Origin: an uncultured Spirochaetaceae bacterium
GTDB lineage: Bacteria > Spirochaetota > Spirochaetia > Treponematales > Treponemataceae
DNA length: 54,230 nt
Assembly (NCBI GenBank): GCA_902802305.1
Contig: CADCLG010000013.1
Span: 69,566-123,795 of the forward strand
Direction of reading: 5' to 3'
This document shows, piece after piece, positions 33,974-53,990 of this stretch; the stretch's first letter is position 1, and every line of letters starts with the position of its first letter. A program made the position numbers and the translations under genes. The notes beneath the pieces are model-generated. The model searched no databases. It saw nothing but the letters and a program-made list of their open reading frames with translations, and was not told where the DNA came from.

Positions 33974-33981
33974 AAAGAAGT

Positions 33982-34141: not shown

Positions 34142-34202
34142 CTATTCAGTTTTGCTTAAATCTGTCTCAATGTTACTCAGTTGTAACTATGAGGAGGTTT
34201 TT

Positions 34203-35534: not shown

Positions 35535-35551
35535 GAAAAACGGAGGGGTCA

Positions 35552-35602: not shown

Positions 35603-35616
35603 AGTGAGGTGAATAT

Positions 35617-35868
35617 ATGAAAAGAAACCGTTATAAGGAAATTGATGAAATGGCTTACGAGATTTTTAAATACTTTAAAGAAAAAGCCAGAGAACATCGT
35701 TATGGCGATATAACTGTGACGCTAACCATGCATGATGGTTACCCGGTTAAAATAACTAAAAGAGTTGGCATACCTATAAAAATGGATCCAATTACAAATA
35801 AATCTATTCTAGAAGAAAAATCAGGAGTTTTTAAAAATCAGGATACTCCTTCTGAAAAGATAACATAA
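35617..35868 (+). CDS. Small hypothetical protein between integrase and primase
   Basis: 83 residues, basic at the N terminus, with GAGGTG about 7 bp before the ATG. The middle (GDITVTLTMHDGYPVKITKR) resembles the short beta element of small YezD/DUF2292-like proteins (strand, DG turn, strand, then basic residues), but similarity is weak. It lies 19 bp before the primase gene on the same strand. Small proteins in this position on integrative elements are often regulators or excision helpers; that is inference here. Confidence 0.5.
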   Translation: MKRNRYKEIDEMAYEIFKYFKEKAREHRYGDITVTLTMHDGYPVKITKRVGIPIKMDPITNKSILEEKSGVFKNQDTPSEKIT

Positions 35869-35887
35869 TAGCCTAAAGGGAGGGCAA

Positions 35888-37357
35888 ATGAAAATAAATG
35901 AAACAAATCTTACATCGCAGCAAAAACAGGCATTGTTTGCTTTTGCAAAGGATTTAAAAGCAAATAAGTATGTTACTGGTGAAATGCAATTTACGGATAT
36001 CACAAACTGTGATTATTTTTTGAAGGCTTACGGAGATTCTATCCGCTATTGCAGTAAATGGAAAAAGTTCTTGTTATGGAATGGGACCTGTTGGGAAATT
36101 GATGATGAAGACAGAGTTTCTGCAATGTACAAAAGTTTTATTCACGAAATGTACAGAGTTCTTAGAGTTATCACCGACATAAAATTGCAGTCAGATTTTG
36201 AAAAACATATTATGAGAAGTGAAAACTATAAACGCATATTAGCTGCAATCGGAATTATGACTATGACCGAATCCATAAGAATTAAAAGCGATAGAATGGA
36301 TTTGGAACATTACCTTTTTAATGCAGATAAACTTACAATCAATCTAAGAACTGGAGAATGTTTTTCGCCAGATAAGGAACAGCTCATTACAAAAAAGAGC
36401 AACTTCATTTATGACAAGAATGCACAGTGTCCTATCTGGAATATGTTTTTGAAACAGATTTTTAATAACGATACTGAGCTTATTCGTTTTGTTCAAAAGG
36501 CAATGGGATATTCTTTAAGTGGTGATATGTCTGAGCAGTGTATGTTTTTTCTTTATGGCAACGGTGCAAATGGAAAGTCTACATTTTTAAATGTTCTGGA
36601 ATATTTGTTTGGAAATTACGCCAATGCTGCAGGAACAGAAACCTTTATGAAAAAGCCATCTGAACAGTCAAATGACCTTGCCAGACTAAAAGGAGCCAGA
36701 CTTGTTACTACAAGTGAAGCTGAACAGGGAAAAACTCTAAGTGAAAGCTTGATAAAGCAAATTACTGGCGGCGATAAGATTACAGCCAGATTCCTTTACG
36801 GAGAGTTTTTTGACTTTAATCCAACTTTCAAGATTTTTATGGCAACAAACCATAAGCCAAAAATTAAGGGTGGCGACAATGGCATCTGGCGAAGAATCAA
36901 GATGATACCTTTTACTGTAACAATTCCACCAGAAAAACGAGACAAACATCTTACTGAAAAACTGATTGCCGAAAACTCTGGTATTTTAAACTGGCTTTTG
37001 CAAGGCTACAAGCTTTGGGAAAAAGAAGGTCTTAGCAATGAGCCACAAGCCGTTTCTGAGGCAATTGCAGGCTACAGAGATGATATGGATAGCATTCAAA
37101 ACTTTATTACGGATTGTCTCGAAATTGATGCAAGCCAGAAGTGCCGCTTAGACAACACAGTTTTGTACACAGCTTATGAAAAGTGGTGTGTCAGAAACAA
37201 TGAACTAAAAATGAGTCACAAATGGCTTAGCACTCAGATGCAGGAAAAAGGGTTTCAAAAGCGATTAAGCAATGGTTCTCGTTTTTGGCCGGGATTAGAT
37301 ATCCGCCCGGAATGGCGAAAATACCTGACTCAACAAAACTCTACCCCACAAGCATAA
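35888..37357 (+). CDS. Phage/plasmid primase-helicase, D5/P4 family
   Basis: 489 residues. The N-terminal part is a D5_N-type region (FLKAYGDSIRYCSKWKKFLL, then WNGTCWEIDD). It is followed by an SF3 helicase with Walker A YGNGANGKSTF, a Walker B-like segment (RLKGARLVTTSEAEQGK) and sensor-type FMATNHKPKI, plus the C-terminal winged-helix-like region usual for TIGR01613. It lacks an N-terminal primase catalytic domain, so the primase may be supplied by the host or another gene. It probably starts element replication. AGGGAGGG lies just before the ATG. Two broken relatives are found at 52,928-53,990. Confidence 0.88.
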   Translation: MKINETNLTSQQKQALFAFAKDLKANKYVTGEMQFTDITNCDYFLKAYGDSIRYCSKWKKFLLWNGTCWEIDDEDRVSAMYKSFIHEMYRVLRVITDIKLQSDFEKHIMRSENYKRILAAIGIMTMTESIRIKSDRMDLEHYLFNADKLTINLRTGECFSPDKEQLITKKSNFIYDKNAQCPIWNMFLKQIFNNDTELIRFVQKAMGYSLSGDMSEQCMFFLYGNGANGKSTFLNVLEYLFGNYANAAGTETFMKKPSEQSNDLARLKGARLVTTSEAEQGKTLSESLIKQITGGDKITARFLYGEFFDFNPTFKIFMATNHKPKIKGGDNGIWRRIKMIPFTVTIPPEKRDKHLTEKLIAENSGILNWLLQGYKLWEKEGLSNEPQAVSEAIAGYRDDMDSIQNFITDCLEIDASQKCRLDNTVLYTAYEKWCVRNNELKMSHKWLSTQMQEKGFQKRLSNGSRFWPGLDIRPEWRKYLTQQNSTPQA

Positions 37358-37480
37358 AGTGTGAATTAGGAAAATCGGAGAGGGTTTGGAGGCTTTTTTT
37401 ACTTGCTCTAATAATTTTTTTAACAGTGCCATTCCTTGACATCATAACATATTATAATAATGACAATATAAGGGGGACAT

Positions 37481-38116
37481 ATGAGGTGCAATATTGCATA
37501 TTATCTGGATCATGATTTTGAGAATATGAATGCGGTAGGTTTTCTTCTTGAATTTAGAAAAAGGATAAAACCTTTGAATGCTGTTTTTACAGGTTGTGAC
37601 GATACGTCATATACAGACATTTCTAAGGTAAATATTCAAACTGGTTGGATGATTTACTGTTATGACGAGGACTACGAAACAGCTTTTTCTGGCGGACATT
37701 GTTTTAGTATTCATCTCTATGATAGAGGAAAAAAAAGAGGCTGGAATATTACTGTTAATGACAAGACTATAGATTTATGGATAGATGACGACGAACTTGG
37801 TTTTTCTCCTGACCGACGATGGAGAAGTTTTACTGAAAATTATAAGAATAATACTGATAAAACTGTTGAAAATCGGATAAATAAAACTTTACAGGAAATT
37901 AAAGATTATATTATACCTGTTTTTCATTGCACAAAAATAATAGCGGTTGGTGACCAGGGAGATTATCAAGAGTTTGAACTTGATATGGAAAACGGAAAAA
38001 CTATTGATGAAGCCTTGCAGAATGAAAAGGTTAATAAAGAATACCATGTAAAAATCTATAAACATGGTAGTTCTGAGGCATTTTCTGACAAAGACTGTTT
38101 GGAATTGCCTGTCTGA
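37481..38116 (+). CDS. Hypothetical protein (island cargo)
   Basis: 211 residues, acidic, no signal peptide or membrane segment. AAGGGGGA precedes the ATG. I do not recognise a family. The first half has Cys, His and aromatic residues in a beta-rich context (VNIQTGWMIYCYDEDYETAF, FSIHLYDRGKKRGWNI) and the second half is charged and helical. It stands alone between the primase gene and the decayed methyltransferase chimera. A role as an island-specific effector cannot be excluded. Confidence 0.55.
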   Translation: MRCNIAYYLDHDFENMNAVGFLLEFRKRIKPLNAVFTGCDDTSYTDISKVNIQTGWMIYCYDEDYETAFSGGHCFSIHLYDRGKKRGWNITVNDKTIDLWIDDDELGFSPDRRWRSFTENYKNNTDKTVENRINKTLQEIKDYIIPVFHCTKIIAVGDQGDYQEFELDMENGKTIDEALQNEKVNKEYHVKIYKHGSSEAFSDKDCLELPV

Positions 38117-38171
38117 ATGTGTGAGCTTTAATAAGGAATTCTGACTTTTTACACTAAAAAATTGGATAATG

Positions 38172-38180
38172 TGGTATAAT
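38172..38180 (+). promoter_or_regulatory. Extended -10 promoter ahead of the cargo cassette
   Basis: TGGTATAAT matches the TG-N-TATAAT extended -10 element; no good -35 box is seen 17 bp upstream (CACTAA). It lies 54 bp before the ATG of the chimeric pseudogene and could also drive the cassette that follows. Confidence 0.5.
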
Positions 38181-38233
38181 ATTATACTTGATATAGAAAT
38201 AATTGTGTTTGAAGTAAAAAACGAGGAATTAAA

Positions 38234-38874
38234 ATGTCAGAAGCCACAAAAGATTTTTTCAAACTTCATAGTCAAATAATAGAACAGTTCAAAGCTTTTT
38301 CTCAGAGCTTTGTTGATATTGAAGATCCTCAAATCTTAAAAGAATTAGAAAAATATGGTAATGATAAATCTATGTGGCCAGAGCCTCTGATTCAGTTTAA
38401 TCCATCTTATCAAGAAGGATCGGCATTTTCTGATTTAATTTCTGAAGGGCTCACAAATCTTTACAACCTTTATTATCAGGAAAATCTGGACATTAAGGCT
38501 GTAATCAAAACCGCAAAATGTTCAGAAGAAGATGCTGCCTGGGGTATAAACGAAATCCAGATAATGCACAGCATCCAGGTAGAATACGGCATGGCAGGAG
38601 CCTCCGCTTACGGCTGGAACGATATCATATTAAATCACGGCTTTTATGACCTAGAGTTCCTCCCAGAAAACGACCGCCATCGCTACACTGCCTGCCGAGA
38701 AGTCCGCAAAGAAATCATGAGCCGCCTCCTAAAACTCAACAACACCTGCCATCAGCAAGAAATCGGAGCAGCTTCGTTGACGAGAATGGAAAGCTTATAA
38801 AGAAAGATTCTAGAAAAGGTAAGAAAGCAAATAAGAAAATACAGGAAAATAATCAGCCTAGTTTGTTTGATTAG
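38234..38874 (+). pseudogene. Chimeric remnant: DUF1998-type helicase N terminus joined to PglX-like methyltransferase C terminus
   Basis: The open frame (38234-38800, 188 codons) seems to be two fused gene ends. Residues about 20-75 (FSQSFVDIEDPQI ... WPEPLIQFNPSYQEG ... LISEGLTNLY) resemble the start of large DEAD/DEAH helicases of the DUF1998 type. From about residue 124 (SAYGWNDI, then NDRHRYTACREVRKEIMSRL and LLKLNNTCHQQE) it resembles the extreme C terminus of BREX/DISARM-type N6-adenine methyltransferases. GC content rises sharply at about 38,570, where the second part begins. After 38,775 the frame shifts by one; the shifted frame continues to QPSLFD and a stop at 38872-38874, a typical end for such methylases. 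Family matches are from memory. Confidence 0.55.
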
Positions 38875-38886
38875 AGGAGATAATTT

Positions 38887-39819
38887 GTGGAAAAAATAGC
38901 ATATCATTACACAACCATAAATGGTTTTTACTCTATCGTGAAAGACAAACGCCTTTTATTGACCAGTTTAAGAAACATGAATGATCCATCTGAAGGTGGA
39001 TATTCTGTAGACACATTTATGGTTGATTACAAAGAAATTGAAAGTCAATATGGGAGCAAATATCCTTTTTTAACTATATTAAAAGAGCAGGCAGAACAAC
39101 ATCAAGAAGAGTTTAAGGAAGTATGTAATATGCCTACAGAACCATATAGCACATGTTTCAGCCGAAAACGGGATAGTCTTTCTCATTGGGAAAGATATTC
39201 TCAGGGAATGACGGGAATATGTATAGGCTTTGACTTAGACGTACTTTATAGTATTAATCTGCCCATGCTAGAAGCTTTTTCAATCAAAGAAATATCTTAT
39301 GATAAAGAATCTAGAAAAAATAGAATCTTTGAAGGTCTAAAAAAGTATTATGAACAAATTAAGCAAAACACAAAAGAACCTGATGACAATAAGATTTGTG
39401 ATATATTGAAAATCAAAGGATATACACATTTGGCGGCAACATACCAATCTATTCTTTATTTTGTTAAAGAAAATTATTGGAATGAAGAGGCAGAAATTCG
39501 TCTTTTATATGATGATTGTTCTTGGCATAATAAAATTAGATTGTTTAAGCAAATAGAAGATACATGGAAAATCAAAATTACAGATAAGGCCGAACAATGG
39601 CATGATCTTAGTGGTCTAGCAAATAAGGAATTTGTTATTTTTTCAACAATAAGATCTTGTCGATATTTAAATCTTGATGAAGATTGGACTTCAAAGCTTA
39701 TACCTGAAATTATAATTGGTCCGTTTTCACGGCAAAATAGTTCTGAATTGAATGATTTTATAGTGGATTCAGGATTAAAAGAAACAAAGGTTTTAAAATC
39801 AGAAATAAAGATTCGGTAA
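38887..39819 (+). CDS. DUF2971 domain protein
   Basis: 310 residues from a GTG start with GAGGAG 8 bp upstream. The N-terminal HYTTINGFYSIVKDKRLLLT, LRNMNDPSEG and CFSRKRDSLSHWERYSQGMT are typical DUF2971 text (PF11185), a family of unknown activity common in mobile and defence-rich regions. The conserved His, Asn-Asp-Pro and Ser-x-x-Trp residues suggest an enzyme-like pocket. It is the first gene of the tight cassette; the UvrD-like helicase starts 17 bp downstream. It could be a sensor or effector of the system; that is inference. Confidence 0.75.
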   Translation: MEKIAYHYTTINGFYSIVKDKRLLLTSLRNMNDPSEGGYSVDTFMVDYKEIESQYGSKYPFLTILKEQAEQHQEEFKEVCNMPTEPYSTCFSRKRDSLSHWERYSQGMTGICIGFDLDVLYSINLPMLEAFSIKEISYDKESRKNRIFEGLKKYYEQIKQNTKEPDDNKICDILKIKGYTHLAATYQSILYFVKENYWNEEAEIRLLYDDCSWHNKIRLFKQIEDTWKIKITDKAEQWHDLSGLANKEFVIFSTIRSCRYLNLDEDWTSKLIPEIIIGPFSRQNSSELNDFIVDSGLKETKVLKSEIKIR

Positions 39820-39836
39820 TCTAAGAGGATAAAAAA

Positions 39837-41954
39837 ATGGCAACAGATTTGGAACAAGTAAATAGGCTAAAAACTCTCAATGGTACAGATCCAGCTCTCT
39901 TTGTTCTTGCGATTTATTCATACATTGAATATTACTGTAAAAAAGAATTAGGTGAAGAAAACTGGAATAATGAAACTCCTTTTTTTAGAATTCTGAAAGA
40001 TTTTAGATATCAAAAACAACCAAATCTTGATTATATTGAACGACGTGAATTAAATGAAAATATTTCAAGTCTGATAGAAGGACATATTATAACAAACGGT
40101 ATACGTCATCAGTTTGATCCTTTGTCAAAGGAGGAAGTTACAGCCCATGTAGAACAGTTCTTAAAATTCGCCAAGACTTTTAACCTCCCAAATTATGGTA
40201 TACTAAAAACTCTTGATGATAAAAAACTTTGGGATAGTCGCAAAAATCCAGAAGAAACAGCAAAAGAACTTCGTGAACTTAATCAAAAGATTGAAACACT
40301 TACAAAAGAAAATGCAAATCAGATTGATATTGCAAAATATAATGAGCTTTCTCGTGAGTTAAAATCACTTCAGTCAGAATTAGAAGAAAGGGAATCCTTC
40401 AAATTAAAAGTTGCAAAAAGAAATGATGATTTGAGAAGAGAAAACTTTGAAAAGAATAACCGGATAAAAGAACTCGAACAGTTGTTGGCGGATGAAAAGA
40501 AAACACAGCAGTACATTAACAATACTCTACGTCTTACAAATTATACCCGCACACGTTCAGATTACGAAAAAGAATTACTTCGATTAACTCCAGAACAGAA
40601 TCAAATTGTAAACATGATTGATTTTGGAAGTGATTATCTGATAAAAGGTTCTGCAGGAACAGGTAAATCTGTAGTTATAATGAAGTTGCTGGAAAAATTA
40701 AAAGAAACAAATAATAGAAAAATAGATAATATCAAGTTTATAACTTATACAAAGAACCTTGTAAAATACAATAAGTATGTAGCAAAGCTTTTTAATATTT
40801 CATCTGACAATGGAATGGTTGTGTCTTTGGATTCTTTCTTATGGGGACTTTTTAGCACCTATACAGAACGACCGGGTATTTATAATGGAAAAGATATAAG
40901 CAATGCGGTTACTCGAATAAATTTAACAGATTGTCCTCTTTCCAAAACAGATTTTAAAAATGAGTTAATTAAGTTTATTCTTCCTAATGCAATTACAAAG
41001 AAAGAATACTGTGAAGATGTAATAGAACGGAAAGGAATGTTAGTTCCTCTAAAGAAAGTTGTGCGAGAAAAGGTATGGGAATACTGTGAAAAATGCTTTG
41101 AATTACTTGAAGCACGAAGCACATTAAATGCAGATTATTGTTTTTATAAATATGCGGTTGCAATAAAAGAAGGGCAATTTGATTTTAAGGATGAACAATT
41201 ATTAGACTACCTTATCATCGATGAAGTTCAGGACTTGAATGCTGCAAAACTTATAATTTGCAAAAGTCTTGTTAAGAAGAGCCTTATCATGGCAGGTGAC
41301 AATGATCAGTCAATATTTGGTTTAGGTTTTAGCTGGAAATCTGCTGGAATTAATATTGTTGGAAAAACAAAGATTCTTCACACTAATTTTAGAAATACAA
41401 ATGAGATAAATGATGTAGCGGAAAAATATAGAGCTACAATTGTAAATAATGATATTGAAAACAGACCTCTTACTTTTAGGGTTGGACCCAAACCTGAGGT
41501 ACATTTTTTGTATTCTACAAGTGACTTTGGAAACGAAGTATTTAATTATGCAGAAATGTGCATAAAGCAGTTAGGTTATTCTCCAGAGAACATTTGTATC
41601 ATTATTAACAATCCAGCTTTAGATTTAAAGGAATCTTTACAGCAGCGGTTTAGAACTGAATTAGATGTAGATCTTAAATCAATTGATGATGAAGAGTTTT
41701 CATTTGAAGAAGAAAATGTAATCAGATATACAAGTACACGAACATCAAAAGGTTTGGATTTTCCTGTAGTTCTTTACGTACTCAACAAAACTTTGTATAG
41801 CTTTGATGGATTTGATGACGAGAATAAATCTAAGTGTAATCGCAATGCAATTTACACTGCTCTAACACGCTCAATGGATTTGCTGCATGTATTTGTTGAT
41901 AAGAATACCGAGGAACCTGAGATTAGAGACTTGATTGGAATAATAAACAACTAA
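39837..41954 (+). CDS. SF1 (UvrD/DUF2075-like) helicase with novel N-terminal region
   Basis: 705 residues. Residues 1-130 are helical and have no family I can name; 130-245 are a predicted coiled coil (LRELNQKIETLTKENANQI, LKSLQSELEERESFK). The helicase domain has Walker A KGSAGTGKS (near 272), LIIDEVQDLN (near 460), MAGDNDQSIFG, YTSTRTSKGLDFPVV (near 635) and YTALTRSMD (near 671). All SF1A motifs are seen, so it is probably active. Short spacers on both sides (17 and 21 bp) place it in one operon with the DUF2971 gene and the RecD-like gene. Confidence 0.85.
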   Translation: MATDLEQVNRLKTLNGTDPALFVLAIYSYIEYYCKKELGEENWNNETPFFRILKDFRYQKQPNLDYIERRELNENISSLIEGHIITNGIRHQFDPLSKEEVTAHVEQFLKFAKTFNLPNYGILKTLDDKKLWDSRKNPEETAKELRELNQKIETLTKENANQIDIAKYNELSRELKSLQSELEERESFKLKVAKRNDDLRRENFEKNNRIKELEQLLADEKKTQQYINNTLRLTNYTRTRSDYEKELLRLTPEQNQIVNMIDFGSDYLIKGSAGTGKSVVIMKLLEKLKETNNRKIDNIKFITYTKNLVKYNKYVAKLFNISSDNGMVVSLDSFLWGLFSTYTERPGIYNGKDISNAVTRINLTDCPLSKTDFKNELIKFILPNAITKKEYCEDVIERKGMLVPLKKVVREKVWEYCEKCFELLEARSTLNADYCFYKYAVAIKEGQFDFKDEQLLDYLIIDEVQDLNAAKLIICKSLVKKSLIMAGDNDQSIFGLGFSWKSAGINIVGKTKILHTNFRNTNEINDVAEKYRATIVNNDIENRPLTFRVGPKPEVHFLYSTSDFGNEVFNYAEMCIKQLGYSPENICIIINNPALDLKESLQQRFRTELDVDLKSIDDEEFSFEEENVIRYTSTRTSKGLDFPVVLYVLNKTLYSFDGFDDENKSKCNRNAIYTALTRSMDLLHVFVDKNTEEPEIRDLIGIINN

Positions 41955-41975
41955 AAGTATAAGGAGACGAAAATT

Positions 41976-44900
41976 ATGGCTACACATATGAGTATAAGAT
42001 TGGCATGGCATAATGATGGATGGAATGGACATATTTGTCAGAAACCTTGTGAAAATCCTTATTGTGTTGGTCAGCACTCATATCCAGGTGATCTGATTGC
42101 TAATAACCGGGATATTGAATATGAAACAGCACATGCAGGTGAACCGTGTTCAGATAATCCTTGTGCTGTTGCTTGCGGCCTTAGTGTAAATGCTTTTGGT
42201 AAAGATCCAATAAAAGTTCGTGTAGATACTCCTGATTTCTGGAATAAAAAAGATGCAGATCCTATAAAAATAGAACTACCACCATACACTGTTTGTACAT
42301 GGTGCTATGAGCCAATGTACAGTGAAGATGTAAAAATCCATGGCAATTCAAAACAAAAATATGATTATAATAAAAGAAAAGTTGGTGCTGAGAAGTATTT
42401 TTCTCAATTTGAACCAGGGAAATCCTTGATTTTTTATTATGCCGGTTATAGTAATCCTTTTTCAGAAAATGAAGAAAATAATTATGTAATTACAGGTATT
42501 TCTCGAGTAAAGAAAATAGAGTCTACCTATTACTATGACAATACTAGTGAAGAAATACAGAAGAGATATGCAGGTGGTTTTGTATGGCAAAGACCTATCA
42601 CTTCAACTTATCCAGACGAGGGTTTTTGTATTCCATATTGGAAATATATTGATGATGAAAAAATAATTGAACGAATACTTATAAAGCCTCAGAATCGTTC
42701 TCCATTTAAGTATGGTAGCCGCGAAGTAGATAATGATGATGCAATTGAAGTAGTAAACCAGTTAATAGCAGTTGTTGATGCTTTGATAGATATAGGTGAC
42801 GAAACCGAAGATTGGACAAAACGAAAAGAATGGCTTAACAGTGTTCTGAATGAACTTTGGGTATCTCGCGGTCCATATCCTGGATTCCCATCAGTTTTAG
42901 AGACCCTTGGATTAAAGAGGCTTATTTCTTCTTATACCTCGCTAACAACAGATGATGAAATGAAATCTTATATGCACTCTGTAAGAGATTTACTAGATGG
43001 CAAAAAAGATGATGTTAAAGGCGATGTATTTGATACCGCTACCCTAAAAAAAGTTCGAAGAGAATATCAGCTTTTTGGAATAGATACAGCAGACTTCTTG
43101 TTTAATAAGCTTTCAAGATTTGACTTAACAGCAAATCAGGTAAAAAACATAATTGATGAAAATAGGGAAAATGTATCTATTACGGCTACATTGGAAGAGA
43201 TGTCAGAGAATCCTTATACCATTTTTGAGCAGTATGTTGGTTATGATTCGGATGACACAATTCCTTTATATAAAATTGATAACGGTGTAATTCCTTCTCC
43301 AGAATTTGGAATTAATGAGCTTCTTGATAATGGTTCTACTGAAAGATTACGTGCTTTCTGTGTAGATGAGTTAAATAGAATTCCAGCTCATTCTTTTGGG
43401 AAAGCAGAAACTATTCTTGAGCGAATAAATGCAAGATTAGACCGTTTACCAGAATGGAAACGTTATGCCTATAAAATGCAGAACTTTAATGTAGAGACGG
43501 AAATTCTTGATGGGGCTCTTGAAAGAAAGAAGGATGATGAAGGTTCATTATATCTTTATTTGAAAGATGTATATGAAGATGAAAGAACTGTAGAAGAAAT
43601 ATTGCGAGAGCTTGCAGATAGATCTGATATACAATTAAAGATGGCTATTACACCAGAAAAATTCAAGGAGAAGCTTCGTAAGAAAGATTCTGCTCTTGCA
43701 AAAAAAGTTCCTGACCAATATGAAGAAATACTAGACCATCAGGCAGATATTTGTATGCAGATTTTTACGAAGCCTCTTTGTGTCCTTGCTGGTGCTGCAG
43801 GTACAGGTAAAACTACGGTTATACGCTCCATACTTGATAATATTGATCGCGTACATGGTGCCGGAACCAGTTTCTTGCTCATGGCTCCAACAGGTAAAGC
43901 TACAGAAAGAATTAAAACTCAAAACGAAAAACCTTCAAAAACTATTCATTCACATTTGGCTAAAAATGGATGGATAAACGAAAACTTTACTCTAAAGCGT
44001 TTTGGCGGTGCTCTTGGACAAGATTATAACACTATAATTATTGATGAATGTTCCATGATCGACCTTAATGTATTCGCTACACTGCTGAAATCTATCAATT
44101 GGAATAATGTTCAAAGATTAATACTGATTGGAGATCCAAATCAGTTGCCACCAATAGGCAGGGGCAAAGTCTTTGCTGATACTATTGAATGGCTAAAAGT
44201 AAAGTATCCAGACAATGTTGGTATTCTTACTGATAATATCCGTCAGCTTGAAAATACTGTAGAGCAAAAAGGACATGGTATTCTTGACCTTGCTGAGATT
44301 TTCATTCAGGAAAACCAGCAGACAGAAGATGAGGCAAAAGCCGCAAATCTAAAAGTAAAAAAAGAGGAGCTCTTCGAGAAAATTGTAGAAAATGGTAACG
44401 GTGATATAGATAAAGACCTGGCTGTTTATTTCTGGAATGAACAAGAAGAACTTGAACAACTTCTAACGAATGTAATGACACGTGATATGAAGCAATATAC
44501 CGGTCTAGAAATGTCTGGAGAAAAAGTTTCAAATGATAAACTCTGGCAGCAAATGATTCGAGATGAAGAAGGTAAGAGTAATCCAGAAATCATACAAGTT
44601 ATCTCTCCTTATCGAGGTGAATTTTATGGTACAGAATCATTAAACCAGTTAATGCAAAAGACATTCAATTCTCATTGGAGCAAGAAAAAATTAGACGGCA
44701 TTGGATATTTTGACAAAGTTATACAGTTCCGAAATAGACCTCAATCAGATCCTGCTTATGCATATCAAGAAAGTACAAAAACAAATATAAAAGCAGAAAT
44801 TTATAATGGAGAGATTGGCTTAACATTAATTCATGGTTTTGATGCTTTTGATAAAAAATATATGTGGAAAGGTAATATAGACCGTTTTCAGGTAGCCTTT

Positions 44901-45626
44901 TCTGGTAAATCTAGAAAAGGATTAAGATATAACTATGGTCAAGATCTTGGACAAGATGTTGATGGAAGATATATAAAAGAACAGAAAGTACTTGAAAATC
45001 TTGAATTAGCATATGCTATTAGTGTTCATAAATCACAGGGCTCTGAGTTTGATTATGTTTATATTGTTATTCCTCATAAGGATAGCCATCTTCTATCAAT
45101 GGAATTACTTTATACTGCATTAACAAGAGCTCAAAAAAAGGTAACTATATTCTTGCAACAAGATATAAGCACTTTGACCTCATTAAGTCATACTGAAAAG
45201 TCAGCAGTACTAAAAATAAATTCTTCGATATATAAGTTTGAGCCATTACCTGATGCTTTGCTTTATGCTGGAAACAATTGGTATGAAGACGGAAAAAATA
45301 TAGCAACACTTTCAAAATATTTTGTTCGCTCTAAATCTGAAGCAATTATAACTAATATGCTTTCAGAAAGAAATATTCCTTTTAAGTACGAAGAGCCTTT
45401 ATATGCTCCAGATGGAACTATGTACTTGCCTGATTTTACCGTAAAGTTTAGAGGGGAAGAATACTATTGGGAGCATGTAGGTAGGACAAACGATAAGGCT
45501 TATATGGCACATTGGACTAAGAAAGAAGCTTGGTACAATAAACATTTCCCAGGCAAATTACTAGTTACAATGGAAAGCAATAATCTTTCTAAAGATGCGG
45601 AAGAATTGATTGAAAAGAATATGTGA
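41976..45626 (+). CDS. RecD-like SF1 helicase with Cys-rich N terminus and nuclease-like C terminus
   Basis: 1216 residues. AAGGAG precedes the ATG. The first 100 residues carry cysteines and histidines (HICQKPCENPYC; later EPCSDNPCAVAC; CTWCYEPM) that could bind zinc. Residues 130-590 are unassigned and helical. The helicase has Walker A AGAAGTGKTT (near 606), IIIDECSMID (near 687), IGDPNQLPPIG, and a UvrD_C_2 end VHKSQGSEFDYVYI (near 1018) with LLYTALTRAQ. The last 90 residues (YLPDFTVKFRG, then YYWEHVGRTND and WTKKEAWY) look like a PD-(D/E)XK/Vsr-type nuclease end. A helicase-nuclease acting on DNA is likely. It is followed after 19 bp by the GHKL-helicase gene. Confidence 0.85.
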   Translation: MATHMSIRLAWHNDGWNGHICQKPCENPYCVGQHSYPGDLIANNRDIEYETAHAGEPCSDNPCAVACGLSVNAFGKDPIKVRVDTPDFWNKKDADPIKIELPPYTVCTWCYEPMYSEDVKIHGNSKQKYDYNKRKVGAEKYFSQFEPGKSLIFYYAGYSNPFSENEENNYVITGISRVKKIESTYYYDNTSEEIQKRYAGGFVWQRPITSTYPDEGFCIPYWKYIDDEKIIERILIKPQNRSPFKYGSREVDNDDAIEVVNQLIAVVDALIDIGDETEDWTKRKEWLNSVLNELWVSRGPYPGFPSVLETLGLKRLISSYTSLTTDDEMKSYMHSVRDLLDGKKDDVKGDVFDTATLKKVRREYQLFGIDTADFLFNKLSRFDLTANQVKNIIDENRENVSITATLEEMSENPYTIFEQYVGYDSDDTIPLYKIDNGVIPSPEFGINELLDNGSTERLRAFCVDELNRIPAHSFGKAETILERINARLDRLPEWKRYAYKMQNFNVETEILDGALERKKDDEGSLYLYLKDVYEDERTVEEILRELADRSDIQLKMAITPEKFKEKLRKKDSALAKKVPDQYEEILDHQADICMQIFTKPLCVLAGAAGTGKTTVIRSILDNIDRVHGAGTSFLLMAPTGKATERIKTQNEKPSKTIHSHLAKNGWINENFTLKRFGGALGQDYNTIIIDECSMIDLNVFATLLKSINWNNVQRLILIGDPNQLPPIGRGKVFADTIEWLKVKYPDNVGILTDNIRQLENTVEQKGHGILDLAEIFIQENQQTEDEAKAANLKVKKEELFEKIVENGNGDIDKDLAVYFWNEQEELEQLLTNVMTRDMKQYTGLEMSGEKVSNDKLWQQMIRDEEGKSNPEIIQVISPYRGEFYGTESLNQLMQKTFNSHWSKKKLDGIGYFDKVIQFRNRPQSDPAYAYQESTKTNIKAEIYNGEIGLTLIHGFDAFDKKYMWKGNIDRFQVAFSGKSRKGLRYNYGQDLGQDVDGRYIKEQKVLENLELAYAISVHKSQGSEFDYVYIVIPHKDSHLLSMELLYTALTRAQKKVTIFLQQDISTLTSLSHTEKSAVLKINSSIYKFEPLPDALLYAGNNWYEDGKNIATLSKYFVRSKSEAIITNMLSERNIPFKYEEPLYAPDGTMYLPDFTVKFRGEEYYWEHVGRTNDKAYMAHWTKKEAWYNKHFPGKLLVTMESNNLSKDAEELIEKNM

Positions 45627-45645
45627 TAACAGGGAGAATACTGAA

Positions 45646-48600
45646 ATGAATGAGCTTGAAAATGAATATTTTATTCTACTTAATAAAGATAGAACAGATA
45701 GTGCCAATACATTAGAAAAGCCATCTATGAAAGGCATTAAAAAAAGCGTTGTTGATAAGTATTCTGATCAAGCCCATTTTATATATGAGCTCTTACAAAA
45801 TGCAGATGATGTACATGCAACAGAAGTTTCTTTTTCTCTTGAAAAGGAGCAACTAGTTTTTTTACATAACGGAACAAGGTATTTCTCAATTTCAAATCCT
45901 AAAACCGAAGATGCAGACGGTGAAAATGGAACTCTTGGAGATTTGAATGCTATAACATCAATAGCAAATTCCAGTAAGACTGATGATGGTGCAAAAATTG
46001 GAAAATTTGGAGTTGGTTTTAAAGCGGTATTTCAATATACAAATACTCCAATTATTTATGATCCAAATGTATTTTTTAAAATAGAGAGATTTATTGTACC
46101 TATTCTTTTAGATAAAGATTATCCAAATAGAAAAAAGAATGAAACAGTTTTCGTCTTCCCTTTTGATGATAAAGTAAAAGAAAAGAAAGAAGCATACGAA
46201 GATATTCAAATAAAACTTGATTCATTAATCTACCCAATCTTATTCTTAAAAAATCTTAATTCAATAACTTATTCGACTCTTTCTGAAACAGGTTCGTACA
46301 AAAAGACTGTTTTAGAATCATTTACAAAAAACAATATTTTGTGTGAGAACATAGAATTTATAAAATCTTTGAACAATAATAATGAAAAGCATTGCTTATG
46401 GCTTTTCTCTCAGCAGTTAGATAAAAATAAAATTTCAGTTGGCTTTTTTACTAATAATAAAGGGAAAATAATCGAAGAAAAACAAACTGCATTTTGTTTT
46501 TTCCCAACTAAAGTAAATACAAATTTAAATTTTATAATAAATGCACCATTTTTATTAACAGACAGTAGGGAAGGTATTAAAGCTGGAAATAATCATAATA
46601 AGCAGATGATTCAATCATTGGCAGAATTAGCAGCATCAGCGTTAGAAATACTAAAAGAAATATCAATTACTAAGAGAATAGAATTGTTTGATGATGAGAC
46701 TTTTATAAATCTAATACCTTATAATGAAAATTTGTATATAAGTGAAAATGAAAGAACTCAGATCTCATTATTACCATTTTATACTGAAATTAAGAATAAA
46801 ATAACATCTTCAGAATTAATTCCTTGTGGAAAATTAGCTTTCACGAATTATAATAATGCTTGTTGGGCAACTTATCCAAACATTCCAGAGCTATTTTCAA
46901 ATGAGCAATTAGGCACTCTTGTTGATAATCAAAATGTAAAATGGATTTTGCCAACAATTGGCCGAAACGAAACATTGCGAACGAATTCAAAATTATGTAG
47001 CTACATCGATGGCTTAGCGTCCAAAAAATTTGATGATGAAGAAATAATTAAATTGATTACTTCAGAGTTTATTGAACATCAAGATATTCAATGGTTATTT
47101 AAATTCTATGACTTTATAAATTCTTCAAATCAAAGAAAACAATATGCAAAACATAAACCAATATTCTTAAATAAGCAAAGGAAAGCTTCTGAAGCATTTG
47201 ATATCAATAATCATTTAATATTATTCATAACAGATACTGATAACTCTAATTATAATTCTATCTTACAAGATTTATTACAAGATGAAAAAACAAGGGAACT
47301 CATTAATTCATATGGTATAAAAAAACCTGAATTAAAAGACGAAGTTTATAATAAAATAATTCCAGATTACAATGAACTAAAAGATGAAAAGAATGCTTTT
47401 AAAAAGATTTTTTCTTATTATAAGAAATGTCCACAAGATGAAATAACTGAATATGAGACGTATCTAAAAAAGCTTTTATTCAGAGGAACTAAAGATAAAG
47501 ATTATCCGTCTGATCTTTATTTACGAACGAAACTTTTAACAGAATTCTTTATAGAGCAACCAAATTATCTGGATTTGGATTACTATAAATCCTTAATAAA
47601 TTCAAACGAATATGAACTTCTTAATAAGTTATTTAGTCGACTTGATGTTAATGACCTCCCTAAGAAACAGAGTAAATACATTGGGAAATTTTCTTACAAT
47701 GAAATTATAGAAAGAGGACTTTTCAATACAGAAGAAGGGGGGTATAGAGAGAAGGAATATACAGAATATTATTTTGAAGGAATAAATTCTAATCTTCACT
47801 ATATAATTGACAACGAAGATACAGATAAATCTTTAACTTTATGGAAAGTATTAAATCTTTTATGTAAAAAATATTATTCAAGGCAATATCATTTATGTTC
47901 TGGATATGAGTTCATCATCGGAAGATGCAAGTATTTTTTCCGATACAATCGTTCAGTTACTTATAATACAGAGCTAAATAAACTTCTCCTTAATGGTAAA
48001 TGGCTTGTAAACAAAGCTGGTTGTTTTGTAACAGCAAAATCAATAAATAAAAATGATTTAGCGGAGTTTTATTTTTCAGAAGACGATGACTATTCATTAT
48101 TACTCAACTTTCTTGATATTCATGAAGCTGTACAAGAAGAACCTTATGAAACAGCAAATCTAACTGAAGAACAAAAACGAAAGATTGAATTTGCAAATAA
48201 ACTGAAAGAGTATGGCATAGAAAATGAGGAAGATTTAGAAGCATTTAGAGAATTTAAGCGTCAACGAGATGCACAGCGATATTCAGCAGAAAATGCCGAT
48301 AACGTCAGTTCCCATAATGCTCAATCAGAAACAAGTACTGATGATAAAGATATCGATGATATTTTTGATGAAGATTCTAAAGATAATGATGAACAAACAG
48401 AAAAGGAGCCATTAAATAAAGCCACTACAGAAGTTCTCAAAAATATTGCCAAACGAACAAAACATAAATCTGAACATTCAGTAAAGAGGATTCCTGAAGA
48501 CGAGGAACCGGATGAGGATGAATTACTGCCATCATCTGTTGATTATAGCAAAAAGATTGAGCGTGCTTTAGAAAAAAGTGCAGCCGAAGTTAAACGAATA

Positions 48601-50862
48601 TCCTATTTAGAAGGTCTGCAAAAAACAGCACTTGAAGAAACGCAAAACAACAAATATTCCTATAAATGGTTTAATACACTTCTCGAAATGGAGAGTATTA
48701 ATAGTGGGGAATCAAATGCAAATAGTAAAGAAGTTTCAATTAGTTTTTCAACTGTGGAAAGAGAATCTGGAACAAAACGAACTTTAGTATTAAAGCATCC
48801 AAATCGTTATATTCCACAATTTATGGAAGATTTAGCAGATATTCCTCTTGTTCTTCATATGGGAGAGCAGACTAAAACTGTAGCCATTGAAGTTGCAAGT
48901 ATTAAGTCATATACACTTCGTGTAAAAATGAAAAATGCCTCAGATATCGATGGAATTGATCTTGATACAGTTACATCTGCAACGATTGATGCAAAAAGTC
49001 CTACATTTTTGATTGAAGAGCTTAGAAAACAATTTGCAGAGTTAAAATTGTCAGATGAATATAATATGCAGAAGAATCTCTGTAAGAACATAGAATTTGT
49101 ATTTGGACCTCCAGGAACAGGAAAAACAACACATCTTGCTCAAAAGGTTTTAATTCCAATGATGCGGGAAAATAAAAAATGTAAGGTATTAGTCTTGACT
49201 CCAACTAATAAATCTGCCGATGTTTTGGTAAAACGAATAATGGAAGTCTCAGGACGTGACCATACATACAAAAATTGGCTTGTTCGTTTCGGTGCTACAG
49301 GAGATGAAGAAATTGAACAAAGTCCGGTGTATAGGGATAAGACTTTTGATATTCGAACTCTTGAAAAAAATGTAACAGTTACAACTATTGCAAGATTTCC
49401 GTATGATTTCTTCATGCCAGAAGGAAGCCGATTATTTTTGTATGGAATAGATTGGGATTATATTGTAATCGATGAAGCCTCTATGATTCCAATTGCAAAC
49501 ATCGTATTACCTTTATATAAAAAGACACCAAGAAAGTTTATTATTGCGGGTGACCCATTCCAGATAGAACCAATTACCTCAGTTGATCTTTGGAAAAATG
49601 AAAATATATATACAATGGTTCACCTTGATTCTTTTGTAGAGCCTAAGACCATACCCCATACATATAATGTAGAATTTTTGACAACACAGTACAGAAGTAT
49701 TCCTGATGTTGGTTTTATCTTTAGTAATTTTGCTTATGGTGGAATATTAAAACATCATCGTACATCCGATAGTCAACGACAATTAAATTTAGGAGATGAT
49801 TTTGGTATTCAAACCTTAAATGTTATTAAGTTTCCTGTAAGTAAATATGAAAGTATTTACCGCTGCAAGAGACTTCAACATAGCAGTTCATATCAGGTCT
49901 ATTCTGCTTTGTTCACATTTGAATATGTTTGTTATCTTTCAAGAGCAATTTCTGAGAAAAATTCAGGACAGCTTTTTAAGATTGGTGTAATTGCACCTTA
50001 TAGAGCACAAGCCGATATGATTGATAAATTATTGGCATCTGAAAAACTTCCTAAGGAAGTTGATGTTCAAGTTGGAACAATTCATGGTTTTCAAGGAGAT
50101 GAATGTGATATTATTTTTGCAGTGTTTAACACTCCACCTTCAATCTCTTCTTCAAATGAAATGTTCTTAAACAAAAGAAATATCATAAATGTATCTATTA
50201 GCAGAGCACGCGATTACTTATTTGTCGTCATGCCAGATGATAAGACTGAGAATATTCAAAATCTTCGATTGGTAAAAAGGGTTGAAGATCTGATTCACAG
50301 TACAAATTCATGGACAGAATTTCATTCATCAGATTTAGAACAATCAATGTTCGGTGATTCGCAATATTTGGAAAATAATGCGTTCTCTACTAGCCATCAG
50401 AGTGTAAATGTTTATGGTCTACCAGAAAAATGTTATGAAGTTCGAGCAGAAGATACAGCAATTGATGTTCAAATCCATAAGCCTTCTATTAATAAAGGAA
50501 CATCTAAAGAATTAGAAAATGAAACTTTAGATGAGATCAGAAATGACGAATATATTGATTCTTATCAGCTGAAAGAGGAATTAATTCCTGAAGAACTGAG
50601 AAAAACGGCAATAGATCTTCCTGTAAAGGGAGCAATAAAAGGTTGGTGCTATTTAGTTCCTTATGAAGGAAAAGTTAAGGACCATACTTTAAAGCAAACT
50701 GAAGTAATGTTTATACCGCTAATGAGAAACGGACAAGAGAAAATGGTTACTGTTTCGGTGGTAAAAGAAGATAGGATAATTTACATTGCAAAGGGAATGT
50801 TTAAATTATATGAACAAGGATTAAGTGCAATAGAAGGAATAGAATTGAAAAAGATTTTTTAA
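45646..50862 (+). CDS. Giant GHKL-ATPase / SF1B-helicase fusion protein
   Basis: 1738 residues; the ATG at 45646 follows GGGAG by 9 bp and replaces an overlapping TTG at 45610. The N terminus is a sacsin/NOV-like Bergerat ATPase: FIYELLQNADD (N-box, residues 45-55), FLHNGTRYF (G1-like, 72-80) and IGKFGVGFKAVF (G2, 118-129). Then come about 700 helical residues and a very acidic linker (about 865-980). The helicase follows: FGPPGTGKTT (near 1153), VIDEASMIPI (near 1273), IAGDPFQIEPI, TTQYRSIPDVG, TIHGFQGDECDIIF (near 1480) and NVSISRARDYLFVV, i.e. UPF1/Dna2-like. A C-terminal beta region of about 170 residues is unassigned. Likely an ATP-switched DNA or RNA motor; I know of no characterised close relative. 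Confidence 0.85.
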   Translation: MNELENEYFILLNKDRTDSANTLEKPSMKGIKKSVVDKYSDQAHFIYELLQNADDVHATEVSFSLEKEQLVFLHNGTRYFSISNPKTEDADGENGTLGDLNAITSIANSSKTDDGAKIGKFGVGFKAVFQYTNTPIIYDPNVFFKIERFIVPILLDKDYPNRKKNETVFVFPFDDKVKEKKEAYEDIQIKLDSLIYPILFLKNLNSITYSTLSETGSYKKTVLESFTKNNILCENIEFIKSLNNNNEKHCLWLFSQQLDKNKISVGFFTNNKGKIIEEKQTAFCFFPTKVNTNLNFIINAPFLLTDSREGIKAGNNHNKQMIQSLAELAASALEILKEISITKRIELFDDETFINLIPYNENLYISENERTQISLLPFYTEIKNKITSSELIPCGKLAFTNYNNACWATYPNIPELFSNEQLGTLVDNQNVKWILPTIGRNETLRTNSKLCSYIDGLASKKFDDEEIIKLITSEFIEHQDIQWLFKFYDFINSSNQRKQYAKHKPIFLNKQRKASEAFDINNHLILFITDTDNSNYNSILQDLLQDEKTRELINSYGIKKPELKDEVYNKIIPDYNELKDEKNAFKKIFSYYKKCPQDEITEYETYLKKLLFRGTKDKDYPSDLYLRTKLLTEFFIEQPNYLDLDYYKSLINSNEYELLNKLFSRLDVNDLPKKQSKYIGKFSYNEIIERGLFNTEEGGYREKEYTEYYFEGINSNLHYIIDNEDTDKSLTLWKVLNLLCKKYYSRQYHLCSGYEFIIGRCKYFFRYNRSVTYNTELNKLLLNGKWLVNKAGCFVTAKSINKNDLAEFYFSEDDDYSLLLNFLDIHEAVQEEPYETANLTEEQKRKIEFANKLKEYGIENEEDLEAFREFKRQRDAQRYSAENADNVSSHNAQSETSTDDKDIDDIFDEDSKDNDEQTEKEPLNKATTEVLKNIAKRTKHKSEHSVKRIPEDEEPDEDELLPSSVDYSKKIERALEKSAAEVKRISYLEGLQKTALEETQNNKYSYKWFNTLLEMESINSGESNANSKEVSISFSTVERESGTKRTLVLKHPNRYIPQFMEDLADIPLVLHMGEQTKTVAIEVASIKSYTLRVKMKNASDIDGIDLDTVTSATIDAKSPTFLIEELRKQFAELKLSDEYNMQKNLCKNIEFVFGPPGTGKTTHLAQKVLIPMMRENKKCKVLVLTPTNKSADVLVKRIMEVSGRDHTYKNWLVRFGATGDEEIEQSPVYRDKTFDIRTLEKNVTVTTIARFPYDFFMPEGSRLFLYGIDWDYIVIDEASMIPIANIVLPLYKKTPRKFIIAGDPFQIEPITSVDLWKNENIYTMVHLDSFVEPKTIPHTYNVEFLTTQYRSIPDVGFIFSNFAYGGILKHHRTSDSQRQLNLGDDFGIQTLNVIKFPVSKYESIYRCKRLQHSSSYQVYSALFTFEYVCYLSRAISEKNSGQLFKIGVIAPYRAQADMIDKLLASEKLPKEVDVQVGTIHGFQGDECDIIFAVFNTPPSISSSNEMFLNKRNIINVSISRARDYLFVVMPDDKTENIQNLRLVKRVEDLIHSTNSWTEFHSSDLEQSMFGDSQYLENNAFSTSHQSVNVYGLPEKCYEVRAEDTAIDVQIHKPSINKGTSKELENETLDEIRNDEYIDSYQLKEELIPEELRKTAIDLPVKGAIKGWCYLVPYEGKVKDHTLKQTEVMFIPLMRNGQEKMVTVSVVKEDRIIYIAKGMFKLYEQGLSAIEGIELKKIF

Positions 50863-50913
50863 TAACCGAAAATATATAACAAGAATGTATAGAAAATTTA
50901 TAAGGAGAAGTAT

Positions 50914-52476
50914 ATGACCAACACTATAGACATCACAAAATTCCGAGAAGGAAATCGCTACGAAGCAAAGCTTGCAAAAGGCGGACTTCCAAACAGTATT
51001 TGGGAAACATATTCTGCTTTTGCAAATACCGATGGCGGGCTTATTCTTCTTGGAGTAAAAGAAAATAAAGACCACTCGTTTACTGTAGAAGGTGTTGATA
51101 ATCCAGAACCTCTGATTAAGAACTTTTGGGATATTGTAAATAATCAGAACAAGGTGAGCATAAATCTTCTTTTGGATAAACATGTTTATACCAAGGAAAT
51201 CGATGGTAAGCAGGTTATTTTTATAGAAGTTCCACGTGCAGAGCGTCAGTTCCGACCTGTGTATCTTAATAAAGATGTTTTTTCTGGAACTTATCATCGC
51301 AATGGCGAAGGAGATTATCATTGTACAAAAGAAGATATTTCTGAAATGTTCCGCGATGCTACTGTTGCAAGCACAGATACAAAAGTTCTTACAGAAATGG
51401 ATGAAAGTGTATTCTGCAAAGATTCTGTAAATGCTTACCGCAATAGGTTTCGAAGTCTGCATGTGAATCATGTTTGGGATTCTTTAGATGATACTGATTT
51501 TCTGCGTAAAATAGGTGCGCTTGGGTTAAGTTCAGAAACAGGAAAGCTTCATCCAACGGCTGCTGGTCTTTTAATGTTTGGCTTTGAATACGAAATTGTA
51601 CGTGAGTTCCCTCAATACTTTTTGGATTATCAGGAAAAGTTTGATTCAAAAATCCGCTGGTCGGACAGAGTTGTTTCCAGTTCTGGCGAATGGAGTGGAA
51701 ATATCTTTGACTTTTTCTTTAAGATTGCCACAAAATTGACGGAAGATATAAAACGTCCATTTAAGCTTGAAGGAATGTTTAGAGTTGATGATACTCCTGT
51801 TCATAAGGCAATTCGGGAAGCTTTTGTTAATACTCTGGTTAATGCAGATTATTATGGAAGACAAGGAATTGTAATTCAGAAATATCCTGATAAATTTGTT
51901 TTTGAAAATCCGGGGTCTTTTAGAATCCCTCTAAAAGATGCTTTTGATGGTGGTACTTCAGATCCACGTAATGCAACAATTCTTAAAATGTTTTCTATGA
52001 TTGATATTGGAGAACGTGCTGGAAGTGGTATTCCAGGGATTGTTTCTGTTTGGGAAGAAAACTTTAAGAGTAAACCTGTATATATTCAGACTTCTAATCC
52101 TTCTCGTGTAAAAACTGAACTTGATATTTCTGTTTTTGTTCAGTCTGATGAAATTTCAAGCGATAAATCAAGCGATAATCCAGATTTTAAAGCGATAAAT
52201 CAGTTTTCAAGCGATAAATCAAGCGATAAAAACGAATTTCAAGCGATAAATAAAGTTTCAAGCGATAAATCTAATCAAAAGCAGGAAGATGTCGAAAAAG
52301 ATTTATTGGCTATTTTGGCTGATAAACAGGAGCATTCTGTTTCTGAACTTGCAAAAATTGTAGGATTGAGCCCGGCTAGAACTCGAGCTATTGCTGCAGA
52401 ACTGGTATCTAAAGGTTTAATTTCTGCAATAGGTGCAAACAGAAACAGGACATATAAACTTGTAGATAAGGAATAA
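50914..52476 (+). CDS. AlbA_2 (Schlafen-type) ATP-binding protein with C-terminal winged helix
   Basis: 520 residues. AAGGAG lies about 7 bp before the ATG. Residues about 10-140 form an AlbA_2 domain (EGNRYEAKLAKGGLPNSIWE, TYSAFANTDGGLILLGV). At about 280-400 there is a HATPase_c_4-type segment (VHKAIREAFVNTLVNADYY; AGSGIPGIVSVW). Residues about 410-455 are a Ser/Asp/Lys-rich linker with repeats. The C terminus is a MarR-like winged helix (HSVSELAKIVGLSPARTRA). The family is common in gut bacteria and usually annotated as a transcriptional regulator; RNA or DNA binding is plausible. It follows the cassette after 51 bp and may regulate it or be separate cargo. A terminator follows. Confidence 0.85.
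   Translation: MTNTIDITKFREGNRYEAKLAKGGLPNSIWETYSAFANTDGGLILLGVKENKDHSFTVEGVDNPEPLIKNFWDIVNNQNKVSINLLLDKHVYTKEIDGKQVIFIEVPRAERQFRPVYLNKDVFSGTYHRNGEGDYHCTKEDISEMFRDATVASTDTKVLTEMDESVFCKDSVNAYRNRFRSLHVNHVWDSLDDTDFLRKIGALGLSSETGKLHPTAAGLLMFGFEYEIVREFPQYFLDYQEKFDSKIRWSDRVVSSSGEWSGNIFDFFFKIATKLTEDIKRPFKLEGMFRVDDTPVHKAIREAFVNTLVNADYYGRQGIVIQKYPDKFVFENPGSFRIPLKDAFDGGTSDPRNATILKMFSMIDIGERAGSGIPGIVSVWEENFKSKPVYIQTSNPSRVKTELDISVFVQSDEISSDKSSDNPDFKAINQFSSDKSSDKNEFQAINKVSSDKSNQKQEDVEKDLLAILADKQEHSVSELAKIVGLSPARTRAIAAELVSKGLISAIGANRNRTYKLVDKE
52150..52270 (+). repeat. AAGCGATAA repeats within the AlbA_2 protein linker
   Basis: AAGCGATAA, usually followed by AT or AA, occurs seven times in about 120 bp. 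Some copies are read as Ser-Asp-Lys and others, shifted by one base, as Ala-Ile-Asn, so the same DNA motif encodes two different peptide motifs in one protein. Confidence 0.8.
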
Positions 52477-53159: not shown

Positions 53160-53990
53160 ATATGTCAAAAGGCTTGCGGTTATGCTCTGAGTGGGGACGT
53201 TAGTGAGCAGTGTCTTTTTATTCTCTGGGGAACTGGTGCCAATGGTAAATCAACTTTTTTGAATGTACTGCTTCATCTGTTTGGAGATTACGGCTGCAGC
53301 ACTGGTATTGAAACCTTTACTAAAAAGAATAAAGAACAGAGTAACGACCTGGCACGTCTTAAAGGTTCAAGGCTTGTTACTACCAGCGAGATTGAACAGG
53401 GATGCCCGATGAGTGAAAGCCTGATTAAAAGCGTTACTGGTGAAGATACATTGACGGCACGATTTTTGTATGGCGAGTATTTTTCTTTTAAGCCGACTTT
53501 TAAGATTTTTATGGCGACTAATCATAAGCCGAAAATCCGCGGAGCTGATAACGGTATTTGGCGACTTATTAAAATGATTCCTTTTGATGTAACAATTCCA
53601 CCGGAACAGAGAGACAAAAATCTTACTGAAAAGCTGATTTCTGAAAACTCAGGAATTTTGAACTGGCTTTTACAGGGCTATGCGATGTGGAGGAAGGAAG
53701 GACTTGAAGAGCCGAAAGCTATAAGAGAAGCAAACGCAGAATACAGAATGGATATGGATAGCGTTGGAACTTTTGTAACGGATTGTCTTGAGCTGGATGC
53801 TTCCTTACAGTGGGGGCTTCCTACAAATATGCTTTATCAGACTTATATAAAATGGTGCAGCAGAAACAATGAGCGTGTTATGAGTCAGAAATGGCTTGGT
53901 ATGAGGATGAGAGAGAAAGGCTTTAAGCGTGTTATTACAGGCGGCTTGAGACAATGGTGCGGGCTTGCGGTGAAACTTGAATGGAAATAG
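53160..53990 (+). pseudogene. 5'-truncated D5/P4-type primase-helicase gene
   Basis: Similarity to the intact gene at 35,888 begins at about 53,160 (ICQKACGYALSGDVSEQCL against FVQKAMGYSLSGDMSEQCM) and runs to the stop. An in-frame stop at 53139-53141 precedes it and the whole N-terminal half is missing. Walker A WGTGANGKSTF, TTSEIEQG and FMATNHKPKI are intact. A TTG at 53259 could start a shorter protein, but that would lack the Walker A motif. The upstream joint lies in low-complexity AT-rich sequence. Confidence 0.8.

Follow-up and report, generated by a model that had tools for sequence, protein, structure and literature searches.

The stretch of DNA analysed here (the window; 54,230 nucleotides, positions 69566-123795 of 123795 on contig CADCLG010000013.1 of the uncultured Spirochaetaceae bacterium assembly GCA_902802305.1) carries four consecutive genes, A to D, between positions 38887 and 50862. 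All four are encoded on the + strand, with intergenic gaps of 17, 21 and 19 base pairs (bp), respectively. A preliminary description of the window had presented them as an undescribed four-gene helicase system. The layout of four open reading frames (ORFs) on one strand with these spacers was borne out, while the analysis reported here argues against a single system and singles out the last two genes, which form the C-D unit (41965-50862, + strand). Gene A (38887-39819, + strand) has a GTG start and encodes a 310-amino acid DUF2971 protein (8.4e-10), gene B (39837-41954, + strand) a UvrD-like helicase of 705 amino acids (UvrD, 1.5e-15), gene C (41976-45626, + strand) a RecD2-like helicase of 1216 amino acids with a predicted nuclease end (AAA_19/RecD-type core, 5.9e-28), and gene D (45646-50862, + strand) a GHKL ATPase fused to a UPF1-like superfamily 1 (SF1) helicase (sacsin ATPase, 2e-17; AAA_12/AAA_11 SF1 helicase, 1e-25). 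The domain calls made earlier (DUF2971, UvrD, RecD-type, and sacsin ATPase-helicase) thus hold, with the nuclease end of C kept as a prediction only, and the good ribosome sites ascribed to every gene are found, as purine-rich sites, before A, B and D. The start of D is the ATG at 45646; the mechanically called ORF opens earlier, with a TTG at 45610. No terminator-like site is seen in the spacers between the four genes.

The PADLOC model PDC-S68 matches the product of gene C across its full length (residues 1-1214 of 1216, 1777 bits). The S in this name presumably denotes single-gene candidates, and the model covers C alone, D being without a PDC-S68 match. The N-terminal part of C (41976-43187, + strand), the start of which is poorly modelled, contains conserved histidine and cysteine residues that may form a zinc site. 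It is followed by the RecD2-like motor core (43188-45239, + strand), with the Walker A motif GAAGTGKTT at residues 606-614. The RecD2 motor fold is present in the structure model, in which the fold comparison is well tested for residues 412-1072 only and no fold is assigned to the N-terminal part, and the SF1 motifs are intact in the sequence. The end domain (45330-45620, + strand) shows in the model the element order alpha-beta-beta-beta-alpha-beta, and four of its residues, E1122, D1153, E1166 and K1183, are invariant in the alignment, the last of them located within a helix and not in an ExK motif. This domain is predicted from the model to be a PD-(D/E)xK-like nuclease. At an E-value of 1e-100, C is found in 2 of 390 genomes of the window's order and in 4 of 348 genomes of the family to which another C-bearing locus (L020) belongs, two of these four being fragments. 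Viral contigs searched with C yielded no relatives, and the plasmid search returned 429 records of which just 7 cover at least 80% of the query; the top three are 41-42% identical to it.

Gene D joins two kinds of ATP-driven modules. Its GHKL ATPase and transducer-like fold (45706-46710, + strand) contains the GHKL N-box and glycine motifs and has, in the structure model, a GHKL-plus-transducer fold like that of sacsin, GyrB and MutL. Its UPF1-like SF1 helicase core (49078-50253, + strand; AAA_12, 1e-25) carries the Walker A motif GPPGTGKTT and resembles Smubp-2, Sen1 and Upf1 by profile. Among the 392 genomes of the window's phylum that were searched, D relatives (E-value 1e-60) were found in the window's own genome only.

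The association between C and D was assessed in 28 C-bearing loci obtained by a C profile scan of one genome per species (84,980 species), which rests on two short peptide patterns and thus gives a sample of close relatives. D (E-value 1e-60) occurs in 7 of these 28 genomes, where it always follows C immediately. Six loci show the two genes side by side (L004, L005, L006, L007, in which D is broken, L020 and L025). In the genome of L026, the seventh, a contig end interrupts C, and the remainder of C, followed by D, lies on a second contig (L140). An eighth case, L028, is a C-D deletion remnant in which the start of C is joined to the end of D, the D part lacking the GHKL domain; it is located at 3490-4651 in a Spirochaetaceae genome bin. 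The DNA of L028 is 90-94% identical to that of the window in three pieces that extend from 41965, 11 bp before C, to 50861, at the end of D. Its C start is 97% identical to that of the window, and the DNA upstream of the remnant is unlike the window. These DNA borders give the best indication of the start and end of the recurrent unit, and they indicate which two of the four genes belong together.

Several further observations bear on this pairing. A search for D in 260 genomes of the L020 family gave two hits, in L020 and in genome G887, both directly behind a C relative. In G887, 15 bp separate D (45-47% identical) from the preceding full-length C relative, which is only 26% identical; this indicates that the C-D pairing is deep. 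On the 28-row C tree, which omits C pieces shorter than 1000 amino acids (L021, L022, L026, L028, L029 and L031) as well as L129, a repeat of L040, the presence of D as neighbour requires a single change (shuffled mean 6.5; 0 of 500 shuffles as low) and that of a GHKL gene upstream requires three. When the 120 best C clusters of a metagenome collection are compared with the 120 best D clusters, 8 longest contigs are equal in size, with 0.7 expected, and all 8 fall within the 48 closest C clusters. The C and D distance matrices correlate over seven loci (r 0.93; 212 of 5040 permutations as high), a value that was set aside as evidence, since it leans on the distant L129; the D alignment comprises 13 rows, one of which (L069) is merely a helicase relative without the GHKL part. 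In all, that C-D is a recurrent portable two-gene unit is well supported.

A number of observations weigh against this reading, or against the function proposed below for the pair. D, whole or as a remnant, was not found in 20 of the 28 C-bearing genomes, and the group of seven D-associated rows in the C tree has a support of 38, six of these rows being grouped with a support of 99. Between L006 and L025, C is 83% but D only 56% identical, which suggests that C and D have been re-paired at times. Furthermore, D occurs without adjoining C in L120 and L123 (near-copies of each other), L121, L122 and L128, and in L129 both genes belong to one gene cluster, about 9 kilobases (kb) apart. In four loci without D (L014, L016, L018 and L024) no recognised restriction or GHKL gene adjoins C, and in L013 a B relative stands directly before C, near a Druantia-type DruE. 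Finally, Pfam and PDB profile searches with the last 127 residues of C gave no credible match. In L120, L123, L122 and L128, D is preceded by a methylase and a ResIII-type helicase gene, neither of which is present in L121; L120 and L123, with the order methylase, ResIII-type helicase and D, are virus-labelled contigs.

The distributions of A and B are separate from that of the C-D unit. No A relative (E-value 1e-8) was found in the 28 C-bearing genomes in a search run without a positive control, and that query did find matches in 25 of 118 genomes of the window's genus, its own genome counted; only four of the others match over the full length. Three of these four best loci adjoin restriction or defence genes: the A relative is located behind a methylase and an 894-amino acid gene and before an AAA protein in L124, behind HsdR in L127, and in L125 between a full-length Tiamat gene and a relative of o4. 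This last gene is a restriction-type fragment, broken near its 3' end, that precedes A in the window (38234-38800, + strand; DrmMI, 6e-15; IIG, 5.7e-14; DrmD, 6.9e-14), which agrees with the decayed defence-type gene noted there before. In the fourth locus, L126, the A relative is nearly alone. The o4 relative of L125 has 231 amino acids, is 69% identical over residues 1-180 and precedes the DUF2971 gene, and DUF2971 and o4 seem to travel as a pair. The whole L125 cluster (8635-17416, window's genus) consists of the o4 relative, the DUF2971 gene, a full-length Tiamat match (705 bits), a gene of 150 amino acids and a GmrSD_N gene. A itself weakly matches the PADLOC candidate PDC-S31 (1.6e-9), had no credible match in a PDB sequence search and no relatives among the viral contigs searched.

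B partly matches the NERD+UvrD and GajB models (GajB weakly, 1.5e-7), and a B relative (E-value 1e-20) is present in 1 of the 28 C-bearing genomes, that of L013. B relatives (E-value 1e-60) occur in 23 of 196 genomes of the window's genus, its own genome counted, and a close copy of B was found in the window's own genome only, among 200 genomes of the genus, which is probably Treponema judging by the names of B relatives. Neighbouring genes vary among 24 same-genus B loci, none of which was seen to have a full-length A, C or D relative beside B, several of these contigs being short. The large proteins encoded beside B in two of these loci match the D helicase core at 22%, without the GHKL part (L069), and the C motif stretch only (L086). 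The first of them adjoins a second B relative in the window's own genome, 43% identical (G000:C26:14375-16498). The plasmid search with B gave no record covering 80% of the query, and the phage search two records, both partial. Among the metagenome clusters, one for B (89%) and one for D (66%) have longest contigs of equal size, 68858, with 0.45 such B-D matches expected, and B and D may therefore stand together on one contig elsewhere. Coincidences between B and C contigs of sizes 5094 and 5376 were dismissed, since these are too short for both genes.

These data bear directly on whether A, B, C and D constitute one co-transcribed defence system of a narrow lineage, in which a DUF2971 sensor or effector, a UvrD-like motor, a RecD-nuclease and a GHKL-helicase would act jointly. 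The tight same-strand spacing without terminator-like sites, the B and D clusters with a common contig size and the recurrence of B before C in L013 are consistent with it. However, A is absent from all and B from all but one of the C-bearing genomes searched, A and B each show a scattered distribution in the genus, L028 combines a nearly identical C start with unlike upstream DNA, and the exact B-D size match is a single one, with 0.45 expected. We therefore consider such a system improbable. Rarity of co-occurrence, which the preliminary description itself had named as evidence against its proposal, is what was found for A and B, D being present in the seven C genomes described above. A and B are likely separate defence-island genes, perhaps on a common transcript with C and D in the window.

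What stands upstream of C changes from locus to locus. Type III Mod and Res genes precede it in L019, L027 and L090; L008 has only Res at this place and L020 a part of Res. Upstream of C there is a type ISP gene in L039, mads-like genes in L012, an ankyrin protein in L089, and DruE with the B relative in L013; in L022 type III genes are located downstream of a split C. Among the loci with D, type IV, DUF262 and HNH-type genes lie upstream of C in L006, Eco57I and T5orf172-ResIII genes in L004 and a divergent HsdR in L025, and no recognised restriction gene directly precedes C in L005 and L007. The L012 locus (4121-9963) has two mad3-like genes flanking a 455-amino acid gene directly before C. 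The repeated presence of Mod and Res genes before C, of type ISP, Eco57I and ResIII-type genes before C or C-D, and of a methylase with a ResIII-type helicase before D is consistent with C-D being the tail end of a restriction-type operon and serving in processing; the window copy would have lost the core of this operon, with o4, on account of its DrmMI and DrmD matches, maybe as its trace. This alternative is possible but rather unlikely, because L005 and L007 lack a restriction gene directly upstream, L025 has only the divergent HsdR, and the o4 relative in L125 pairs with an A relative and not with C-D.

A second arrangement around C involves a different GHKL family, members of which precede C in 10 of the 28 loci. 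In nine of them it belongs to a set of SF2, SNF2 and GHKL genes (L009, L010, L011, L015, L017, L021, L029, L030 and L031), and in L023 it is present as two GHKL pieces. Five of the ten (L009, L010, L011, L015 and L030) form near-copies in the tree, apparently joined by L029, and do not count as independent events. Counting both families, a GHKL gene is found at or near C in 17 of the 28 loci (7 with D and 10 with the other family; the L028 remnant is excluded, and the gap in L017 is about 1.4 kb). Pfam identified no helicase domain in the one member of the second family scanned, that of L009. The L009-type set, present in Bacillota and Spirochaetota bins, has the order SF2 helicase, DrmD-like SNF2, helicase-free sacsin/GHKL, C and often a 200-amino acid gene; the first and last genes of the L009 set have no PADLOC match at 1e-10.

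The integrative island setting noted in the preliminary description is confirmed. Three tRNAs (Ser/Ser/Arg) adjoin a tyrosine integrase (34152-35534, + strand; Phage_integrase, 1e-21), the third of them, tRNA-Arg (33898-33974, + strand), being a possible attachment site, and a P4-type phage/plasmid primase-helicase follows (35888-37357, + strand; TIGR01613, 1.3e-97). The last 21 bases at the 3' end of tRNA-Arg occur only once in the window, no second copy being found at up to 3 mismatches, and the window stops at the contig end, so that the right-hand border of the island is not seen. Downstream of D, with its start 51 bp past it, stands gene E (50914-52476, + strand), an AlbA_2/HATPase_c_4/HTH gene by Pfam; in the other C-D loci, D is not seen to be followed directly by an E relative. 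Another P4-type primase piece (53259-53990) is 67% identical to residues 234-477 of the first primase, so that a primase copy flanks the cassette on either side, an arrangement reminiscent of two related elements placed in tandem. Far upstream, at 1566-6784, a 1324-amino acid ORF in low-GC DNA directly precedes a PDDEXK_4 nuclease gene, possibly another defence pair. The island with its P4-type primase, together with relatives on some plasmids and virus-labelled contigs, is also compatible with C and D being repair or element-maintenance helicases of mobile islands rather than defence effectors. There is little to recommend this alternative in view of the repeated siting of these genes beside restriction and Druantia-like genes and the full-length match of C to a curated defence-candidate model, and the defence setting proposed earlier is supported.

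In a PADLOC run on the locus, no model set of one named system covers A-D, in agreement with the preliminary description. Parts of the unit nevertheless resemble named systems. The sacsin-type GHKL N-terminus of D (residues 48-812) is matched best by the TmtA model of Tiamat (7.5e-42), but this match ends at residue 812 of 1750 and D ends in an AAA_11/AAA_12 SF1 helicase. The full-length TmtA architecture is without a helicase; L125 holds such a full-length match, with a NOV_C end. The second half of D matches Mokosh helicase models (MkoA/MkoC; 2.5e-29, residues 1281-1548), partially only and in its UPF1-like helicase part, but no PLD-type domain was found in A-E by Pfam at 0.01; Mokosh I and II are linked to PLD (PMC10952713). 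C differs from RecD2 and from the RecD of RecBCD by an extra N-terminal region of about 400 residues and by its predicted nuclease end. With MutL, GyrB and sacsin SR1, D shares the fold alone: it is fused to a UPF1-like helicase, and Pfam finds no mismatch-repair or gyrase domain in it.

The combination of a helicase with a nuclease is a logic shared with Gabija, ARMADA and Druantia, B being weakly GajB-like and DruE being located near C in L013. Gabija consists of GajA beside GajB, but no GajA match is present among the nine ORFs at 34152-52473. ARMADA, DISARM and Druantia have a YprA-type helicase (DrmA/ArmC/DruE), which is not the case here: DrmA and DruE are unmatched in A-E at 0.01, and only o4 matches DrmMI/DrmD. 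PADLOC 2.0.0 predates ARMADA; the ARMADA preprint describes helicase-rich systems, and by term count RecD, GHKL and sacsin are absent from its main text (PMC12458937). The main text of a paper on BREX diversity contains no RecD, GHKL, HSP90, UvrD, sacsin or Upf1 (PMC12839542), a 2013 HEPN paper discusses sacsin and shows no C-D-like pair in the portion available (PMC3710099), and nothing on such a pair was found in the accessible parts of PMC10952713 and PMC13092281. Names of the PDC type other than PDC-S68 are used in the accessible parts of PMC11514479 and PMC13356809. Neither the name PDC-S68 nor a description of the C-D pair was found in the literature searched, the absence of the pair from print resting on these searches alone. 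The earlier statement that the system is undescribed therefore stands in so far as no named system has C and D as a pair, and not for C by itself, already a PADLOC candidate with a full-length model; the novelty lies in the C-D pair and its modular use.

Taken together, C-D is best explained as a recurrent portable pair behind the separately distributed A and B, and it probably provides an accessory engine for DNA destruction, with D as a clamp that would load or drive the helicase-nuclease C, an explanation that we favour with moderate confidence. It builds on the adjacency of C and D, their varying surroundings, the sharp DNA borders (one comparison), the intact motor and ATPase motifs, the invariant residues of the predicted nuclease and the model folds; to these it would add a physical partnership, the nuclease activity, DNA and not RNA as target, the trigger and protection against phage. 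MutL and GyrB dimerise on ATP and clamp DNA, and RecD2 unwinds in the 5'-3' direction. In the proposed mechanism, the GHKL domain of D would likewise dimerise on ATP and form an ATP-gated clamp around invading DNA, its UPF1-like motor would travel along one strand, and D would thereby load or drive C onto this DNA, which C would unwind 5'-3' and cut with its predicted C-terminal nuclease. The trigger could be ends or gaps produced by a neighbouring restriction or sensor system or by phage replication. The nucleic-acid surveillance by a GHKL switch, motors and a nuclease that was suggested earlier is thus a fair reading for C and D, and not for four genes as one system.

More tentatively, and with less confidence than in the pair itself, C-D might be an undescribed portable engine of immunity, an exchangeable effector cartridge operating behind many sensors (e.g., type III, ISP, and type I or IV restriction, and Druantia-like systems); in an alternative layout, D would be replaced by a helicase-free GHKL protein and an SNF2 motor. 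As the locus illustrates, a neat row of four genes with short spacers is not necessarily one system. If the proposal is true, recognition systems of different chemistry would share one helicase-nuclease cartridge. This would help to account for the additional helicase genes of restriction-type loci and make the accessory helicase role testable with two genes.

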